Assembly (NCBI GenBank): GCA_030835085.1 | Contig: JAUQWQ010000168.1 | Coordinates: forward strand, 1-33,744 | Reading direction: 5' to 3' | DNA from: Ignavibacteria bacterium | GTDB lineage: Bacteria; Bacteroidota; Ignavibacteria; Tepidaquicellales; OLB5 | Length of the DNA stretch: 33,744 nucleotides | In this document: piece by piece, positions 13,914 to 21,881 of the stretch | How the letters are laid out: each line of letters opens with the position of its first letter | How positions within the stretch are numbered: the first letter of the stretch is position 1 | Translations under genes and position numbers: made by a program | The notes under the pieces: model-generated | Databases searched by the model: none | What the model was told of the DNA's origin: nothing | What the model saw: only the letters and a program-made list of their open reading frames with translations

Positions 13914-14584
13914 TCACATTTATTTCTGCAATCAGCTTATTAATATTACTTCCTGCATATTTTATGATATCTGAAGCACCAACCAAACATAAATATACAT
14001 ATCTCGCTCTGGGTGATTCATATACCATTGGCGAAATGGTTAATGAAAACGAGCGCTTTCCTGTTCAACTAAGCTCCATGCTTAATTCCGACAGCATTGA
14101 TATTGCTGAACCGCTTATCATTGCCAAAACCGGATGGACAACCGATGAACTGCTTGCCGCGATCAATGAAAAAAATGTTAAGGATACATTTAACATTGTT
14201 ACTCTGCTTATAGGTGTAAATAACCAATACCGCGGGCGAAGTTCTGAAGAATACCGCTCGGAACTTAAACAGCTTCTGGATATTGCCATAAACTATGCCG
14301 GCGGAAAAAAAGAACATGTGTTTGTGCTTTCAATACCTGACTGGGGTGTCACCCCCTTTGCCGAAGGCAAAGACAGGGGTAAAATTGCGGCAGAGATCGA
14401 TGATTATAACCGTGTAAAGAAGGAAGAATGCGAGAAGCTGGGTGTGAAGTATTACGATATTACAGGCATATCACGTACAAACGATCCGGATATGATAGCA
14501 ACAGACGGACTGCATCCATCAGGCAAAATGTATAAAATGTGGGTCGATAAAATTTACAGCGATATTAAAGCAACTTTAAAATAA
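13877..14584 (+). CDS. SGNH/GDSL-family hydrolase, membrane-anchored or secreted
   Basis: A serine esterase/lipase-like hydrolase of the SGNH superfamily. Block I is YLALGDSYTIGE (nucleophile Ser), block III is LLIGVNNQYRG (oxyanion Asn) and block V is ATDGLHPSG (catalytic Asp and His). A Gly for block II probably lies in AKTGWTTDEL. The N-terminus has a hydrophobic stretch (IITFISAISLLILLPAYFMI), likely a signal peptide or anchor. The only ATG before that stretch is at 13877, overlapping the RidA gene by 37 bases. ATG 13964 would remove the hydrophobic segment. I keep 13877, with doubt. The substrate (acyl ester, acetylated sugar or similar) is unknown. Confidence 0.88.
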   Translation: MYCACGKQRAEIITFISAISLLILLPAYFMISEAPTKHKYTYLALGDSYTIGEMVNENERFPVQLSSMLNSDSIDIAEPLIIAKTGWTTDELLAAINEKNVKDTFNIVTLLIGVNNQYRGRSSEEYRSELKQLLDIAINYAGGKKEHVFVLSIPDWGVTPFAEGKDRGKIAAEIDDYNRVKKEECEKLGVKYYDITGISRTNDPDMIATDGLHPSGKMYKMWVDKIYSDIKATLK

Positions 14585-14650
14585 CATCTGTGCGGCCTCA
14601 AAAGTCTATTCAATTTACACAATACTTTTGAAGTCTTATAACCTGAACAT

Positions 14651-15871
14651 TTGAAAATTAATCCCGCCGAAATATTAATCAAAGATTACACCTACGAACT
14701 TTCCTCAGAAAAGATCGCGCAGTTTCCTTTAAAAGAACGTGACAGCTCAAAGTTACTTATCTACAACAATGGCACTATCTCACAGGATATATTCCGCAAT
14801 ATTGCAGAAATTATTCCTGAAAACTCCCTGCTTATTTTTAACGATACTAAAGTCATCAATGCAAGATTGAAATTCATGAATCCTGCAGGCAAAGAAATTG
14901 AAATTTTCACATTGGAACCGGCAGAGAATACTGAGCTTGTTACTGCATTAAGTACAAAGGGTTCAGTAAGCTGGGCATGCCTTGTAGGGAATCTCAAAGC
15001 GTGGAAATCAGGTAAACTGAGTTCAGTCAAAATTCATAACGGCACGGAGTGCCGATTGGAAGCGGAGCTTCTTTCCAGGCAAGCTGATACATTTATTATC
15101 AGACTTTACTGGCAGCCTCTAGAGCGTACCTTTGCTGAAGTGCTTGAAATCTTCGGGCAGATACCGCTTCCGCCATATATGAAGCGTGATGCAGTACCCG
15201 ATGATAAGACAACATACCAGACGGTTTACTCAGAAACTGAAGGCTCCGTTGCCGCGCCTACTGCGGGTCTGCATTTCACAAATGAAGTATTGGCTTCACT
15301 TAAAAGTTATAATATCAAAACGGGATTCGTAACTCTCCACGTAGGTGCCGGAACATTTAAGCCGGTTAAGACCAGAAATATTTCAGAGCACGATATGCAT
15401 TCAGAAAGCATTTATATTAAGCTAAGCCTGTTGGAAGAAATTACTGCAAATATTGGCACAAATAGAATAATTGCCGTGGGCACAACTTCAATGCGTACAA
15501 TTGAATCACTTTTCTGGTTCGGCGTTCAGTTATTACAGGGCAGGCATCATATCGGTGAGCTAAACATAACTCAATGGGAGCCGTATGAAAATGAACCCGA
15601 AGATCCTGCAAAAGCCTTTCAGGCTATCATTTCATATATGAAACAAAACGACCTAAAGTACCTTTACGGTAAGACCAATATTATTATTGTTCCGGGGTAT
15701 GATTTTAAGATATTTTCGGGCATTATTACGAATTTCCACCAGCCGCAAAGCACGCTTTTGCTGCTTATTGCCGCATTTATTGGCAGTGACTGGAAGGTGC
15801 TCTATGAATATGCTTTAAATAATGATTTCCGTTTCTTAAGTTACGGTGATAGCTCAATATTATTGAAGTAA
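14651..15871 (+). CDS. queA: S-adenosylmethionine:tRNA ribosyltransferase-isomerase
   Basis: QueA transfers and isomerises the ribose of SAM onto preQ1-modified tRNA to form epoxyqueuosine in the queuosine pathway. Hallmarks are IAQFPLKERDSSKLL near the N-terminus, FNDTKVINARL, GQIPLPPYMKR, YQTVYSETEGSVAAPTAGLHF, TLHVGAGTFKPVK and TNFHQPQSTLLLLIAAFIG. At 406 residues it is about 55 longer than E. coli-type QueA. This agrees with the longer form I associate with Bacteroidota. The start is the TTG at 14651 (MKINPAEILIKDYTY), since no ATG lies upstream in frame. Between the previous gene and this start, TCAAAAGT (14598-14605) can pair with ACTTTTGA (14624-14631). The last 13 codons recur after the second S41 gene. 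Confidence 0.95.
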   Translation: MKINPAEILIKDYTYELSSEKIAQFPLKERDSSKLLIYNNGTISQDIFRNIAEIIPENSLLIFNDTKVINARLKFMNPAGKEIEIFTLEPAENTELVTALSTKGSVSWACLVGNLKAWKSGKLSSVKIHNGTECRLEAELLSRQADTFIIRLYWQPLERTFAEVLEIFGQIPLPPYMKRDAVPDDKTTYQTVYSETEGSVAAPTAGLHFTNEVLASLKSYNIKTGFVTLHVGAGTFKPVKTRNISEHDMHSESIYIKLSLLEEITANIGTNRIIAVGTTSMRTIESLFWFGVQLLQGRHHIGELNITQWEPYENEPEDPAKAFQAIISYMKQNDLKYLYGKTNIIIVPGYDFKIFSGIITNFHQPQSTLLLLIAAFIGSDWKVLYEYALNNDFRFLSYGDSSILLK

Positions 15872-15931
15872 AAAAGAATTACGTCCGCTTTTCATCCATT
15901 TCAATTATTCTTAAATCAATTATTCCTTGAT

Positions 15932-18121
15932 ATGAATGAACAAACTCTCCGGAATTTCCGCGCGTTTACAAAAATATACGGTTATATCAGATTTTTCCAT
16001 CCAAGTGATGAAGCTTCATCAATTGACTGGGATAAATTCGCAGTATACGGGTTTGAAAAAGTTGAAAATGCCGGTGATGATAATGAGCTGAAAACTCTGC
16101 TGCTGGAATTGTTCCTGCCGATAGCTCCCGCTATTGAAATATATTTTAATGGTGAAAATTTTACATATGATCAAAGTAAAATAATTCCCGCAGATACAAC
16201 GGGGCTTCTCCCCGTTGCATGGCAGCATTACGGTATTGCTACCGATACCAAAGAATTTTATAACATATACAGCAGCAAGCGTTTAAACAGACTAAAGATA
16301 AATCAGAATAAGCACGGGCAAATTTCAAAAGTTATCAGCGCTGAAAGATTTTCAGGCAAAAGGATAAGGGTAAGTGCCGGAGTAAAATTGAACTTTGGTG
16401 AAAATGCATCCGGAGAACTGTTTGTGAGATCTTCCGGTAAGGAAATTTCAGTAAAATTTAACAATGATAAATGGGAAGAATGTTCTGTAGAGATAGAAGT
16501 TCAAACGGATACTGACACAATAGAGATCGGGTGCAGGCTGTATGATGAAGGCGCAGTATATTTAAACGGGTTTAGAATTTATGTTTACGAAAATGATTGC
16601 TGGATGGAATTTGAAGTGAAAGGACTGCTTTTTGAAGACCAGCTGATCGGCAATGAGCCTGTTGGGTGGATTTTTGAAGAAGTAGGCTATATTTTTAAAA
16701 TTCTGGATTTTGAGAAGTATCATAATGACAGGTTTTGTATTATTGAAGGAAAATATGAAAAACAGCCGTTTGAAAAATACCCCGCACCTGGAGAAATTGC
16801 TGTTAAATTGCTTAATGACAACTTAAAATGCGTTTTTCCTTTATGCCTTTATACAGATGAAAATGGTACCCTTCCAAGATCATCAAAAAAATTTAATGAT
16901 CTTTCTTCAATCCGTTCTGATGAAAAATTTAAAGAACCGGACAGTGATTCCGGGTATACAAGGCTTGCTGTATCCGCTGTAATATGGAATGTAATACAGC
17001 ACTCATACCCATATTTTGAGTATTGCGATATTGACTGGGATAGGTCGTTAAATGAACTGTTAATTAATGCTGATATAAAGCAATCTAAAAATAATTTTAT
17101 AAATGGTGTATATAAAGCAACTGCAAAGCTTGATGATGGACATTTAAACATGTCTCATCCGGATCTCGCGTTCAAATTTTTTTATCCGCCGTTCATTCTG
17201 GATCATGCTGAAGGTAAATTTGTTATTAGCAGGATACTTGAAGAAAACACTGGTGTAAAAACAGGCGATATTATTCTGGAAATAGATGGAATTGATATCA
17301 ATAAAACTGCTGAAGAAGAAATGAAGAATTTTTCTGCATCAACACATGGAAGGAAAATGCATTTTATACTCAGCGGAAAGCTTATAAGGCATGAAAATAG
17401 TAATCCTATCAAGCTCAAAATTCTGCGAGATGAAAAGACAATGCAATTATCTGTTGAGCGCAAATATAAAATGAATGATTTCTTTGAAAGGGGATTATTT
17501 CCCGAATACAGAAAAGAGAAGTATATTGAGTTCAAACCGGGGATCTTTTATGCTGATCTTACCAGGTTTGAGCCCAATGAACTGGAAGATAAGCTGTCAG
17601 AGCTTATCAATGCTGAAGGAGTTATATTTGATCTGAGAGGTTACCCTTTCTTTGACAGTGACTTTTTAAAACATTTAACTGATGAAACAATTAGATTCCC
17701 GCAACTGTTGGTTCCGCAGATAATTTATCCAGACAGGGAAAATATGAATGACTGGGATGGCAGCGGCCGCGGAGAGTGGGAGCCAATGAAACCACGTTTT
17801 AGAGGAAAAATAATATTTATGACAAACTATTCTGCTATAAGCTGGGCTGAAACAATTATGTCAATAGTAGAGGCTTATAAACTAGGGACAATTATCGGCT
17901 CTCAAACTGCAGGTACTAACGGTGATTGCAACAGGGTTAAGTTAACCGGCGGGTATACTTTTCAGTTTACAGGTACGAAAGTACTGAAGCATGATGATAC
18001 CCCTCATCACGGGGTCGGTATTCACCCGACTGTTCCCGTAAGCCGTACTGTAAAAGGAATCCGGGAAAAACGCGATGAATTTCTTGAAAAAGCAATTGAA
18101 GTAATTGAAAATGCCGGATAG
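15932..18121 (+). CDS. S41-family peptidase, tandem copy 1, without signal peptide
   Basis: A 729-residue protein of the S41 (C-terminal processing/tricorn-core-like) peptidase family. The N-terminal segment IYGYIRFFHPSDEASSIDWDKFAVYG and the ELFLPIAPAIEI region are characteristic of this large Bacteroidota group. A beta-rich, carbohydrate-binding-like domain follows at about 115-230. LDDGHLNM near residue 400 begins the S41 core. A PDZ-like segment follows (FVISRILEENTGVKTGDIILEIDG), then the protease domain with the predicted nucleophile Ser637 in AISWAET and HHGVGIHPTVPV. Its neighbour at 18206 is a clear paralogue with a signal peptide, but this copy begins directly at NEQTLRNFRAF. Upstream the frame is open to the queA stop, with no ATG, GTG or TTG that would add a leader. 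Confidence 0.93.
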   Translation: MNEQTLRNFRAFTKIYGYIRFFHPSDEASSIDWDKFAVYGFEKVENAGDDNELKTLLLELFLPIAPAIEIYFNGENFTYDQSKIIPADTTGLLPVAWQHYGIATDTKEFYNIYSSKRLNRLKINQNKHGQISKVISAERFSGKRIRVSAGVKLNFGENASGELFVRSSGKEISVKFNNDKWEECSVEIEVQTDTDTIEIGCRLYDEGAVYLNGFRIYVYENDCWMEFEVKGLLFEDQLIGNEPVGWIFEEVGYIFKILDFEKYHNDRFCIIEGKYEKQPFEKYPAPGEIAVKLLNDNLKCVFPLCLYTDENGTLPRSSKKFNDLSSIRSDEKFKEPDSDSGYTRLAVSAVIWNVIQHSYPYFEYCDIDWDRSLNELLINADIKQSKNNFINGVYKATAKLDDGHLNMSHPDLAFKFFYPPFILDHAEGKFVISRILEENTGVKTGDIILEIDGIDINKTAEEEMKNFSASTHGRKMHFILSGKLIRHENSNPIKLKILRDEKTMQLSVERKYKMNDFFERGLFPEYRKEKYIEFKPGIFYADLTRFEPNELEDKLSELINAEGVIFDLRGYPFFDSDFLKHLTDETIRFPQLLVPQIIYPDRENMNDWDGSGRGEWEPMKPRFRGKIIFMTNYSAISWAETIMSIVEAYKLGTIIGSQTAGTNGDCNRVKLTGGYTFQFTGTKVLKHDDTPHHGVGIHPTVPVSRTVKGIREKRDEFLEKAIEVIENAG

Positions 18122-18205
18122 CAGCAGCCGACATTGATTAAGTTAAAAATATGTCTATAAATTGAATTCTGAATAAGAATTCTATAATATAACATTTATA
18201 CAGTC

Positions 18206-20521
18206 ATGAAAATACTCAGGATTTTCCTTTCGTTGTACATGTTTACTTTCAGTATATATTATAGCGGCTCTCAGCCAATAACAGGTAATGAGCAGTATAC
18301 CCGGAACTGCGAAGCATTTACCAGGCTTTACGGGTATATACGCTTCTTTCATCCTTCTGATGAAGCACAGAAGATCGATTGGGAACGCTTTGCAGTTTAC
18401 GGAATGCAGAAAGTATCGGGTTCTGTGGACGATGAAGAGCTGAAACAAAATCTGCTTGAGCTGTTTCTGCCGATTGCGCCTTCACTTCAGATCACCCGTA
18501 CCGGGGACAATATACCATACGATAATTCGCTATTCATGCCTGCTGATACTGCCGGGTACAAAAGAGTTTTCTGGCAGCATTACGGTGTGTATCTTGGTAA
18601 CGATAAGAACATTTACAAAAGCTCCAGGGTAAATACTGTAACCGAAGGAAGCACAGATGATTTCGGGGGAATTTCCCAATACGTTGATGCTGAAAAACTG
18701 CGCGGAAAGAAAATTAAGCTGAAAGGATATGTGAAAGCCGATGTAAAGGGTGCGCATAATACGGGTAATCTCTGGCTCAGGGTTGACCGTGAGAACGGAA
18801 AAATGGGATTCTTTGATAATATGTGGGATAGACCCGTTAAGCTTAACAGCTGGAACGAGTATGAAATTACAGGTGAAGTTGCTAAGGATGCTTTAAACGT
18901 AATGTTCGGATGTTTCCTTTACGGGCAGGGAAAGATATGGGTTGATGAGTTAAGGCTGTTTGTAAGTGATAACGGAATGTGGAATGAGATAAATATAAAG
19001 GATCCGGAATTTGAGTTAAAAGATAAGGATGGCCAGGGTCTGCACTGGAAAGGCGGCAATGAGAAGTACAGCTACCAAATGACCGATTCAGAAAAGTATA
19101 ACGGCAATTCTTCATTTATGATTTGGCTGAATTCTGAAGCTTTATATCAAAGCAAGATTTTCGATAAAGAACCTTATGACGGAGAAAAACTCCGCGCAAA
19201 AATTAGTGAGAATTTAAGCTGTACTTTTCCTCTAATGCTCTTTGCTGATGAAAAGGGGACACTTCCGCATTCTGATACTTCGGTTCTTGCTGAGCTGAAC
19301 AGGAATATTGGAAATAATACTACTGCTGTGTTAACAGCTAATGATAAATTTGTCAGACTGGGTGATATCTGTATTGCATGGAATATCTTTCAGCATTTCT
19401 ACCCTTATTTTTATATTGCAGGTACAAACTGGAACGAAGTTCTTACCGAATATCTTAAACTGGCTTCGGAAAGCAGTGATGAATTTGAGTTTCATAAAGT
19501 TCTGATGGAGTTTATCGCTGAATTGAAAGACGGTCATGGGAGAGTTGGGTTTAATAAAAATAAACAAAGGAACTACCCGCCTGTAATTCTGGATTACTCC
19601 GAAGGGAAAGTTGTTATATCAAGAATCCTTGACCAAAACAGTACGTGGCCTATAATGGAAGGTGATGAAGTAACTGAAATTGACGGAATGAAAACCGCCG
19701 AGAAAATGAAGCAACTAAGCAGATATATTTCATCGGCAACACCGCAATGGCTAATACACAGGCTGCTTAATGAATCGCTTATTGCCGGGAAGGATGGTTC
19801 AGTTTTCAATATCAAAATCAAAAGTGAAGATGGTACAGAAGAATTTTTTTCAATGAAAAGAAATTTGGCTATAGATGAACTTGTGAAAAAAGGCTGGTAT
19901 GCAGAATACAGGCCTGATGATATTAAAGAGATCAAAAAAGGTATATATTATGTTAACCTTGACAGGGCATCTATGGGCAAGATTGACAGCAATATCAGCA
20001 AGCTGTCAAATGCACAAGGTGTAATATTTGATATGAGGGGTTATCCTAATGGTAACCATGATGTATTGAGGTATCTTACAGATTCACCTATTCGCTCTGC
20101 TTATTTTTCAGTTAACGAAGTCATTTATCCTGATAGGGTAGAACCAGTTATAAAAGATACTTCTTCCAGGTGGAACCTGGGTCCGCTTAAACCAAGATTC
20201 AAAGGGAAAATTGTTTTCCTTGTGAATGGCAACGCCATAAGCTATGCTGAAAGTGTTATGGGCATTGTTGAAGCATACAAGCTTGGCACTATTATTGGGG
20301 AGCCTACTGCCGGCACCAACGGAAATGTAAACCCGTTTAACCTGCCGGGGGGTTTCTATATTTCATGGACCGGTATGAATGTTGTAAAGCACGACGGCAC
20401 ACGTCATCACGGTGTCGGCATCATTCCGGATATATTAGTGAACCGCACTATCAAAGGAATCCGTGAAAAGCGGGATGAATATCTGGAAAAAGCCATTGAA
20501 GTAATTGAAAACGCCAGATAA
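18206..20521 (+). CDS. S41-family peptidase, tandem copy 2, secreted
   Basis: A 771-residue S41 peptidase. MKILRIFLSLYMFTFSIYYS is a Sec signal peptide, so the enzyme should act in the periplasm or outside the cell. The mature part parallels the upstream gene: LYGYIRFFHPSDEAQKIDWERFAVYG, LLELFLPIAPSLQI, then DGHGRVGF near residue 441. The PDZ-like VVISRILDQNSTWPIMEGDEV and the nucleophile region GNAISYAES (Ser679) follow, then HHGVGIIPDI. The two copies end almost identically (GIREKRDEYLEKAIEVIENAR here). They differ more in the middle, so the duplication is old. Members of this group are annotated as peptidases but targets are unknown. The start ATG lies 84 bases after copy 1. Confidence 0.94.
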   Translation: MKILRIFLSLYMFTFSIYYSGSQPITGNEQYTRNCEAFTRLYGYIRFFHPSDEAQKIDWERFAVYGMQKVSGSVDDEELKQNLLELFLPIAPSLQITRTGDNIPYDNSLFMPADTAGYKRVFWQHYGVYLGNDKNIYKSSRVNTVTEGSTDDFGGISQYVDAEKLRGKKIKLKGYVKADVKGAHNTGNLWLRVDRENGKMGFFDNMWDRPVKLNSWNEYEITGEVAKDALNVMFGCFLYGQGKIWVDELRLFVSDNGMWNEINIKDPEFELKDKDGQGLHWKGGNEKYSYQMTDSEKYNGNSSFMIWLNSEALYQSKIFDKEPYDGEKLRAKISENLSCTFPLMLFADEKGTLPHSDTSVLAELNRNIGNNTTAVLTANDKFVRLGDICIAWNIFQHFYPYFYIAGTNWNEVLTEYLKLASESSDEFEFHKVLMEFIAELKDGHGRVGFNKNKQRNYPPVILDYSEGKVVISRILDQNSTWPIMEGDEVTEIDGMKTAEKMKQLSRYISSATPQWLIHRLLNESLIAGKDGSVFNIKIKSEDGTEEFFSMKRNLAIDELVKKGWYAEYRPDDIKEIKKGIYYVNLDRASMGKIDSNISKLSNAQGVIFDMRGYPNGNHDVLRYLTDSPIRSAYFSVNEVIYPDRVEPVIKDTSSRWNLGPLKPRFKGKIVFLVNGNAISYAESVMGIVEAYKLGTIIGEPTAGTNGNVNPFNLPGGFYISWTGMNVVKHDGTRHHGVGIIPDILVNRTIKGIREKRDEYLEKAIEVIENAR

Positions 20522-20523
20522 AT

Positions 20524-20577
20524 TATGCTTTGAAAATTGATTTTCGTTTCTTAAGTTACAGTTACCCGGGAGCATAA
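20524..20577 (+). pseudogene. Remnant of the 3' end of queA
   Basis: Directly after the S41 stop, bases 20524-20562 match 15809-15847 inside queA at 34 of 39 positions, including 12 identical bases TTCTTAAGTTAC. Read in the same phase, the fragment gives YALKIDFRFLSYS against YALNNDFRFLSYG in QueA, then a stop at 20575-20577. Nothing upstream of the match resembles QueA because the S41 coding sequence abuts it. This is a relic of duplication or rearrangement. Confidence 0.75.
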
Positions 20578-20584
20578 ATCCCGG
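20566..20584. terminator. Hairpin after the S41 pair
   Basis: CCGGGA (20566-20571) pairs with TCCCGG (20579-20584) around a 7-base loop. Flanking TTAC and GTAA can extend the stem with a bulge, and an AT-rich stretch follows. It is a possible transcription terminator for the S41 genes. The T-run is weak. Confidence 0.35.
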
Positions 20585-20661
20585 AAACCTGTAATTTTAT
20601 GGATATTTCAGTTCGTTAGAAGTATAATTACTGACTTTGCTTTCAACTAAATCATAAATCA

Positions 20662-21195
20662 ATGCTCGAAACATTACAAAAGAACTGGTGGTTAATTGCT
20701 GTAAGGGGTGTACTTGCAGTAATATTCGGAATACTGGCACTTGCATCTCCATATATAGTAATTTTTTCACTCATAACATTTTTTGCATTCTTTGCTGTTC
20801 TTTCCGGATTCTTCATCCTCACTCTCGCTTTCCTTGGTGAAACCGATAACAAAGGTTTGAGGATAATTGAAGGATTGATCTTTTTAGGCGCGGGAATTGT
20901 TGTTCTTCTGAACCCCGTTTCTGCGCTGGGCGGAATTATGATATTCATAGCAGCTTGGGCAATACTATCTGGATTCATCCATATTATAGGCGCTATAAAG
21001 ATGCGCAAAGTCATTACCAATGAATGGCTGATGATACTTAATGGTGTCATATCAATTGTTTTCGGTATCCTGCTTGCGGGAAACCTGATTCAGGGCGCGG
21101 GGGTGATGCTGATGGTGTTCGGCGCGTTCGCAATACTCAGCGGGATATTTTCAATAATGCTTTCATTCAGAATAAAAACATATAAATCAAACTAA
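20662..21195 (+). CDS. HdeD-like (DUF308) six-helix membrane protein
   Basis: A 177-residue integral membrane protein of the DUF308/HdeD family. After a short N-terminus (LETLQKNWWLIAVRG, typical of the family) come about six hydrophobic segments. The repeated helix-pair pattern shows in GVLAVIFGILALASP, LIFLGAGIVVLLNP and GVISIVFGILLAGN. In E. coli HdeD contributes to acid resistance at high cell density. In other phyla the role is undefined. The start ATG at 20662 is preceded by AAATCATAAATCA, with no ribosome-binding site. Two DUF2007 genes follow closely, so this may be the first gene of a short transcript. Confidence 0.9.
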   Translation: MLETLQKNWWLIAVRGVLAVIFGILALASPYIVIFSLITFFAFFAVLSGFFILTLAFLGETDNKGLRIIEGLIFLGAGIVVLLNPVSALGGIMIFIAAWAILSGFIHIIGAIKMRKVITNEWLMILNGVISIVFGILLAGNLIQGAGVMLMVFGAFAILSGIFSIMLSFRIKTYKSN

Positions 21196-21206
21196 ATAAT
21201 ATAATC

Positions 21207-21572
21207 ATGGCAGAAGACGAAAATGTAAGCCCGGGCGGGATAGATTCAGAAGGCGGCGAAGGCAATGAAGATATGAATGATGAATATCTTGTATCGGTAT
21301 TTAAGACCGATAATATGGCGATAATCGCAGTTGTAAAATCAATTCTCGATGAAGCCGGCATTAAATACATGGCAAAGGGCGAAAATATGCAGGGCGTTGT
21401 TCCCATAAATGCATTTCCTGTTGATTTCCAGGTTATGCCGGGTGATGTAGAGTACGCCAAAGACCTTCTTAAAGAAGTTGACGAGGATTCTGACTGGTAC
21501 AAAGAAGATTCCCCGGATGATGCAGGTGATGAAACACCGGAAGGCGATAAACCTGCTGATGAAAATGCTTAA
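21207..21572 (+). CDS. DUF2007 protein, tandem copy 1
   Basis: A 121-residue acidic protein with a DUF2007 core at about residues 26-95. The core contains YLVSVFKTDNMAIIAVVKSILDEAGI, then YMAKGENMQGVVPINAFPVDFQV and DVEYAKDLLKEV. DUF2007 is a ferredoxin-like domain that some proteins carry fused to zinc ribbons; its role (putative signal transduction) is not established. The N-terminal 25 and C-terminal 25 residues are low-complexity, acidic and Gly/Asp/Glu-rich. It starts 11 bases after the HdeD-like gene and is followed 24 bases later by a paralogue, so the three are likely one operon. Confidence 0.87.
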   Translation: MAEDENVSPGGIDSEGGEGNEDMNDEYLVSVFKTDNMAIIAVVKSILDEAGIKYMAKGENMQGVVPINAFPVDFQVMPGDVEYAKDLLKEVDEDSDWYKEDSPDDAGDETPEGDKPADENA

Positions 21573-21596
21573 TACTTAAATCTTTTATTATTGAAA

Positions 21597-21881
21597 ATGA
21601 ATTATAATGAAGATTCCGAAACACTGGTTACGGTTTATACATCCGGTAACAATGCAATTTGTGCTTTGGTGAAATCGATGCTTGATGAAGCCGGAATAAC
21701 GTACCTGGCTAAGGGTGATAATCTGCAAAGTGCTTATCCGATAAATGCATTTCCTGTGGAATTTCAGGTATTGACAAGTGATGTGGAGTATGCAAGGGAA
21801 CTGCTTAAGGATGTTGAAGAAAGCATTGAGATCGATTCACCTGATGATGGTGAATCCGAAGATGAATATGAAGAAGACTAA
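21597..21881 (+). CDS. DUF2007 protein, tandem copy 2
   Basis: A 94-residue paralogue of the preceding protein. The core TLVTVYTSGNNAICALVKSMLDEAGI and YLAKGDNLQSAYPINAFPVEFQV aligns without gaps to copy 1. The C-terminus is again acidic (DSPDDGESEDEYEED). The frame could begin with a TTG at 21591, but ATG 21597 (MNYNEDSETL) is two codons downstream and preferred. The acidic leader of copy 1 is missing. Two different copies side by side suggest a heteromeric or diverged pair. Function unknown. Confidence 0.86.
   Translation: MNYNEDSETLVTVYTSGNNAICALVKSMLDEAGITYLAKGDNLQSAYPINAFPVEFQVLTSDVEYARELLKDVEESIEIDSPDDGESEDEYEED

Follow-up and report, generated by a model that had tools for sequence, protein, structure and literature searches.

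Cis-regulatory sites can be embedded in upstream coding sequence, and the constraint on such sites acts on the DNA over and above the codons. Genomic islands are also known at the ends of tRNA-modification genes. SGI1 sits at the trmE 3′ end (PMC8409611), and dusA is a site of integrases and islands (PMC4482086). The microcin H47 island carries short direct repeats and no recombinase, and its mobility has been observed (PMC3191183, PMC5426353).

The locus described here lies in a stretch of 33.7 kb, hereafter the window, from a 4.05-Mb Ignavibacteria genome (G000). As in the SGI1 and dusA islands, a direct repeat from the end of a tRNA-modification gene, queA, flanks a variable stretch. Unlike those islands, the queA locus has no integrase, holds just one or two S41 peptidase genes, and is synonymously conserved at the queA site in species free of the insertion. 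It resembles the microcin H47 island in that cargo lies between short direct repeats with no recombinase of its own, but it is not known to excise, and the S41-free relative G005 has a normal queA end. Like embedded cis-regulatory sites, the queA repeat has DNA-level constraint over codons just upstream of the next gene; unlike typical examples, it occurs at one locus only and has a second, free-standing copy behind an inserted gene. A repeat that resembles an integration scar may thus be a functional DNA element hidden in codons, which bears on the calling of gene-end islands from direct repeats alone. The locus provides a short candidate cis-element for uncultured Ignavibacteria and allows fast S41 allele exchange to be traced. 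Its features are as follows, with G012 denoting a relative from the same genus.

14651-15871, plus strand: queA2, a queA paralogue of 406 aa (PF02547, NF001140/TIGR00113), whose 3′ end carries copy 1 of the candidate element
15809-15844, plus strand: element copy 1, coding, TATGCTTTAAATAATGATTTCCGTTTCTTAAGTTAC; synonymous codons frozen in 10 species; unique to the locus
15932-18121, plus strand: S41a peptidase gene (PF03572); first ~305 nt (15932-16236) colinear with the single S41 gene of G012, remainder divergent
16237-20474, plus strand, ends approximate: divergent tract private to G000, comprising the rest of S41a, the spacer, and most of S41b
18206-20521, plus strand: S41b peptidase gene (PF03572); G012-like in its last ~15 codons
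20524-20559, plus strand: element copy 2, non-coding, TATGCTTTGAAAATTGATTTTCGTTTCTTAAGTTAC; the same in G012
20553-20597, plus strand: terminator-like hairpin that begins at the end of element copy 2 (fold z = -2.65)
20662-21195, plus strand: HdeD-like (DUF308) gene (PF03729), the right edge of the variable slot

The two repeat copies, 15809-15847 and 20524-20562, lie on the same strand and are identical at 34 of 39 bases, exactly as the original prediction had reported. When either flank is used to search the whole 4.05-Mb genome, the partner copy is recovered at E ~1e-6 and the next-best matches reach only E 0.025-0.08, which is background. The similarity holds up, with the rest of the genome at E of at least 0.025. 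With a profile of the 36-bp core, the two copies score 54 and 53 bits, and no other place in the 33.7-kb window exceeds 4.9 bits. The interval between S41a and S41b contains no copy of the element, as had been claimed, and a third copy suspected by eye in the spacer between queA and S41 was rejected on negative profile scores. No second queA fragment was found beyond the 36-39 bp repeat, and the other queA of the genome (at G000:C159) has no match to the repeat in the whole-genome search. The reported lack of an integrase also held, with none among the Pfam-scanned proteins of the window and no tyrosine recombinase on the contig. The repeat is evidently a DNA-level element of ~36 bp, TATGCTTTAAATNATGATTTYCGTTTCTTAAGTTAC, that is kept nearly unchanged in related species.

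Gene order was compared in 12 congeneric genomes and two genomes from sister genera (G013, G014). In the ten congeneric genomes that carry queA2, the neighbourhood between queA and HdeD holds zero, one, or two S41 genes. In G004, queA and HdeD are directly adjacent, which supplies the arrangement that the original prediction had advised looking for; in G005, G006, and G007, which lack S41, the two genes are separated by a single small ABM-like ORF. Since these S41-free relatives exist, S41 is a variable insertion at the queA-HdeD locus. G008 and G011 have the order queA-ABM-S41-HdeD. G009 has queA-S41-copy-ABM-HdeD, where the copy is the distal repeat, and G003, whose contig begins inside S41, is alike from its S41 end onward. 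G012 and G002 have queA-S41-copy-HdeD, and the window has queA-S41a-S41b-copy-HdeD. In the sister genera, a GDSL lipase gene precedes the small ABM-like ORF, the position held by queA2 within the genus, and there is no queA match at the locus; the ABM-like ORF is followed by an HdeD-like gene in G014, and G013 has no HdeD match.

The distal copy is found in five genomes (G000, G012, G002, G009, G003), in each directly behind S41. Where S41 lies directly behind queA, a copy of the queA tail is present on its far side. The S41-HdeD junctions of G008 and G011 have no copy, so the element is dispensable before HdeD in some genomes. G012, G002, and G009 carry one S41 gene each and already have the distal copy, which is therefore older than the second S41 of G000. 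These arrangements show that the distal copy arose with, or after, the placement of S41 directly behind queA and before G000 gained its second S41. G008 and G009 have mosaic relatedness at queA, and local trees disagree on some branches; allele exchange at the locus is thus likely and complicates any count of gains and losses. The placement of G005, which has no S41, beside G012 requires extra losses or allele swaps.

The part of queA covered by the repeat is unusually poor in synonymous variation. In ten species, 12 columns of this part have an invariant residue, and 9 of them are encoded by one codon throughout; elsewhere in queA this holds for 8 of 101 such columns (Fisher p = 7e-7). The ten sequences come from one genus, and several are close. 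The top 14-codon segment of queA has a synonymous identity of 0.95 versus 0.55 overall, a value matched by 1 of 10,000 column permutations, and eight neighbouring genes treated in the same way peak at no more than 0.83. Compared with the queA protein of the window, the other nine have 56-87% identity. Codon freezing extends to the four species without S41 at the locus (G004-G007), and outside the genus the same residues are encoded by varied codons. The tested region was set in advance by the repeat (± a few codons), so selection bias is limited. Suppressed synonymous variation, which is what a cis-acting DNA site overlapping coding sequence should display, is present here, and the codon record shows DNA-level constraint on the predicted element inside queA.

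The distal copies are conserved as well. Those of G000 and G012 are identical (38/38), and the next ~100 nt match at only 77/95 with many gaps; those of G009 and G003 match at 39/42, and the following ~35 nt align poorly. Within each of these pairs a distal copy is closer to its counterpart than to the copy inside queA in the same genome, which means that their likeness is not maintained by gene conversion from queA. The non-coding copies evidently evolve and are conserved independently of queA. The element is laid out as TATGCTTT ... TTCTTAAGTTAC, and GCTTT through CTTAA takes up 28 nt. None of the 15 copies departs from TTCTTAAGTTAC, which stands at a fixed spacing from the upstream GCTTT or ACTTT block; the complete genome of G009 contains this 12-mer at the two element copies and nowhere else. 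The distance from the end of the element to the next gene is 32-46 nt for the ABM-like ORF and ~60 nt for HdeD in G004; in the window it is 87 nt for S41a and ~102 nt for HdeD. The evidence for the element comprises one genus, ten queA sequences, and five distal copies, all of it sequence data.

Several known functions were considered for the element. The genus uses a Bacteroidota-type promoter, TTG-N18-22-TAnnTTTG, which was seen 13 times versus 0.9 expected in upstream regions L165-L184 of G009; TAnnTTTG is the sigmaA box of Flavobacterium (PMC9723704). This box is absent from the element and the stretch just downstream in all arrangements except that of G004, and a sigma70-like promoter was rejected for the element, which lacks the box that the genus uses. 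No conserved RNA fold was found (consensus -0.75 kcal/mol; single-sequence z -0.8 to +1.5 except for the G000 hairpin), Rfam gave no element match above the gathering score, and no motif of known function was found in the element. A minus-one slippery heptamer, TTTAAAT, was discarded because the shifted frame stops within 1-2 codons in the species checked by eye; the heptamer is lost in the distal copies. A dispersed regulon was likewise rejected, as the core does not form a family elsewhere in the genomes searched, and the element is by all indications locus-specific. A TetR/cation-efflux (CDF) intergenic site, TGGAAACTATTTTCGTTTCTTAAGTTTCCA (G000:C179:1501-1521, L007), is conserved across most of the congeneric genomes and has the 17-mer TTTTCGTTTCTTAAGTT in common with the element. 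It has palindromic half-sites of its own, and the likeness is probably coincidental.

The boundaries of the DNA private to G000 lie inside the S41 genes. The window is colinear with G012 at 87% from 14101 to 16236, a stretch that takes in queA, the spacer, and 305 nt from the start of S41a, and colinearity restarts near the end of S41b and runs through the distal copy and the HdeD-like gene. Measured in 25-codon steps, the DNA is 0.90-0.97 identical to G012 up to S41a codon ~100, where the value drops to 0.46-0.6, and a level of ~0.95 is regained only over the last ~15 codons of S41b. This profile is evidently the footprint of recombination within S41 rather than at the repeats. A tree of S41 sequences, in which the G042 row is out of frame and meaningless, groups S41a with the other S41 genes of the locus and leaves S41b outside, though this placement is not firmly supported.

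The S41 genes of the locus (15932-20521) have conserved ends and a very divergent middle, and the neighbouring genes are 84-96% alike. Such a pattern is expected if alleles are exchanged repeatedly through recombination in the conserved ends.

We give about an even chance to the explanation that best accounts for these observations: the repeat would be a cis-acting DNA element of ~36 bp specific to this locus, copied as S41 took its place beside queA, and later recombination within S41 would have made the pair. The element would overlap the last codons of queA2 and lie 32-102 nt upstream of the next gene, whichever that is, and selection would act on it as DNA (or unstructured RNA) beyond the codons alone. 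S41 would have come between queA and the ABM-like and HdeD genes in the ancestor of part of the genus, leaving the element on both sides. Both copies would have been kept, as we propose, because each precedes a separate downstream unit, and the element would then act on downstream genes. The route may have been a tandem duplication from the end of queA to S41, starting from the queA-ABM-S41-HdeD order of G008 and G011, with one ABM and one S41 then lost; duplication with loss appears to be the simplest route that needs no integrase. Later, in G000 only, the S41 pair would have arisen by recombination within S41, in which the middle of the single S41 was swapped for a divergent tract with parts of two S41 genes. 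A further possibility, which we put forward tentatively and consider doubtful, is that the element marks a slot of gain, exchange, and loss of S41 genes and that, each time an S41 gene arrives directly behind queA, a second, free-standing copy is retained beyond it, so that the element would serve as a portable boundary or control site of the slot through some factor.

The gene order also accommodates an attachment-site scar, which we judge unlikely. An integrative element would have entered at the 3′ end of queA, restored the gene end, and left the old end as the distal copy; the integrase would later have been lost, with S41 as cargo. Direct repeats flank S41 in occupied sites (G009, G003) and a single copy is present in empty sites (G005, G006, G007), as in an integrative element, and islands are known at the ends of tRNA-modification genes, as with SGI1 at trmE (PMC8409611) and those at dusA (PMC4482086). 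However, a PF00589 search of the G000 genome finds five tyrosine recombinases and none on this contig, and S41 is the sole gene between the repeats in relatives. The core, as a potential attP, is absent from 2.9 million viral contigs, and S41b is just 25-26% identical to its best plasmid and phage relatives. Nor does the sequence that follows the distal copy contain an evident remnant of the queA end: in G009 and G003 the match is no better than shuffles except in 1 of 10 comparisons, the best, with p = 0.014. Synonymous freezing in the S41-free species is left unexplained by such an insertion.

A plain, functionless duplication scar is slightly less probable again. The queA tail would then have reached its place behind S41 through unequal crossover or template switching, and common descent alone would make the copies alike. 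Such a scar agrees with the shared orientation and phase of the copies, and tandem duplication with differential loss predicts that S41 should lie on either side of the ABM-like gene by species, as it does. An idle copy should nonetheless drift like its flanks, which is seen in neither species pair, and at the parent site in queA the synonymous codons are frozen. The original prediction had also allowed for a mere relic of a second queA. That view does not survive the DNA constraint on the queA site in species free of the duplication, the independent conservation of the distal copies, or the lack of any longer queA fragment. Either kind of scar is compatible with the gene order; neither accounts for the freezing in S41-free species or for the separate conservation of the distal copies. 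It is very improbable that the 4.7-kb S41 pair entered at the queA end in one piece, bounded by the repeats. In the window alone the repeats do bracket exactly both S41 genes; G012, G002, G009, and G003 already carry the distal copy, and both limits of the G000-specific DNA lie within the S41 genes. What remains of the proposed 4.7-kb block is that S41 is a variable insertion between queA and HdeD, with a copy of the queA tail beyond it where it directly follows queA, and the pair itself is not one repeat-bounded block.

The closest named records to queA2 are Ignavibacteria MAGs such as UBA2360, its more distant relatives, ~50% identical, are Bacteroidia proteins, and a search of the sister genera gave no close match, which suggests that queA2 may have been acquired from Bacteroidia. 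The hairpin at 20553-20597 is strong and possibly a terminator; the stretch of G012 folded for comparison has z = +1.33, and the hairpin was not found there. Residues ~130-260 of S41b resemble parts of AraC-family regulators encoded on plasmids of Priestia and Macrococcus; S41 peptidases do not usually have such a partner domain. Beyond the HdeD-like gene, at 21207-21881, two DUF2007 genes lie in tandem with 71% identity over 197 nt and probably arose by duplication.
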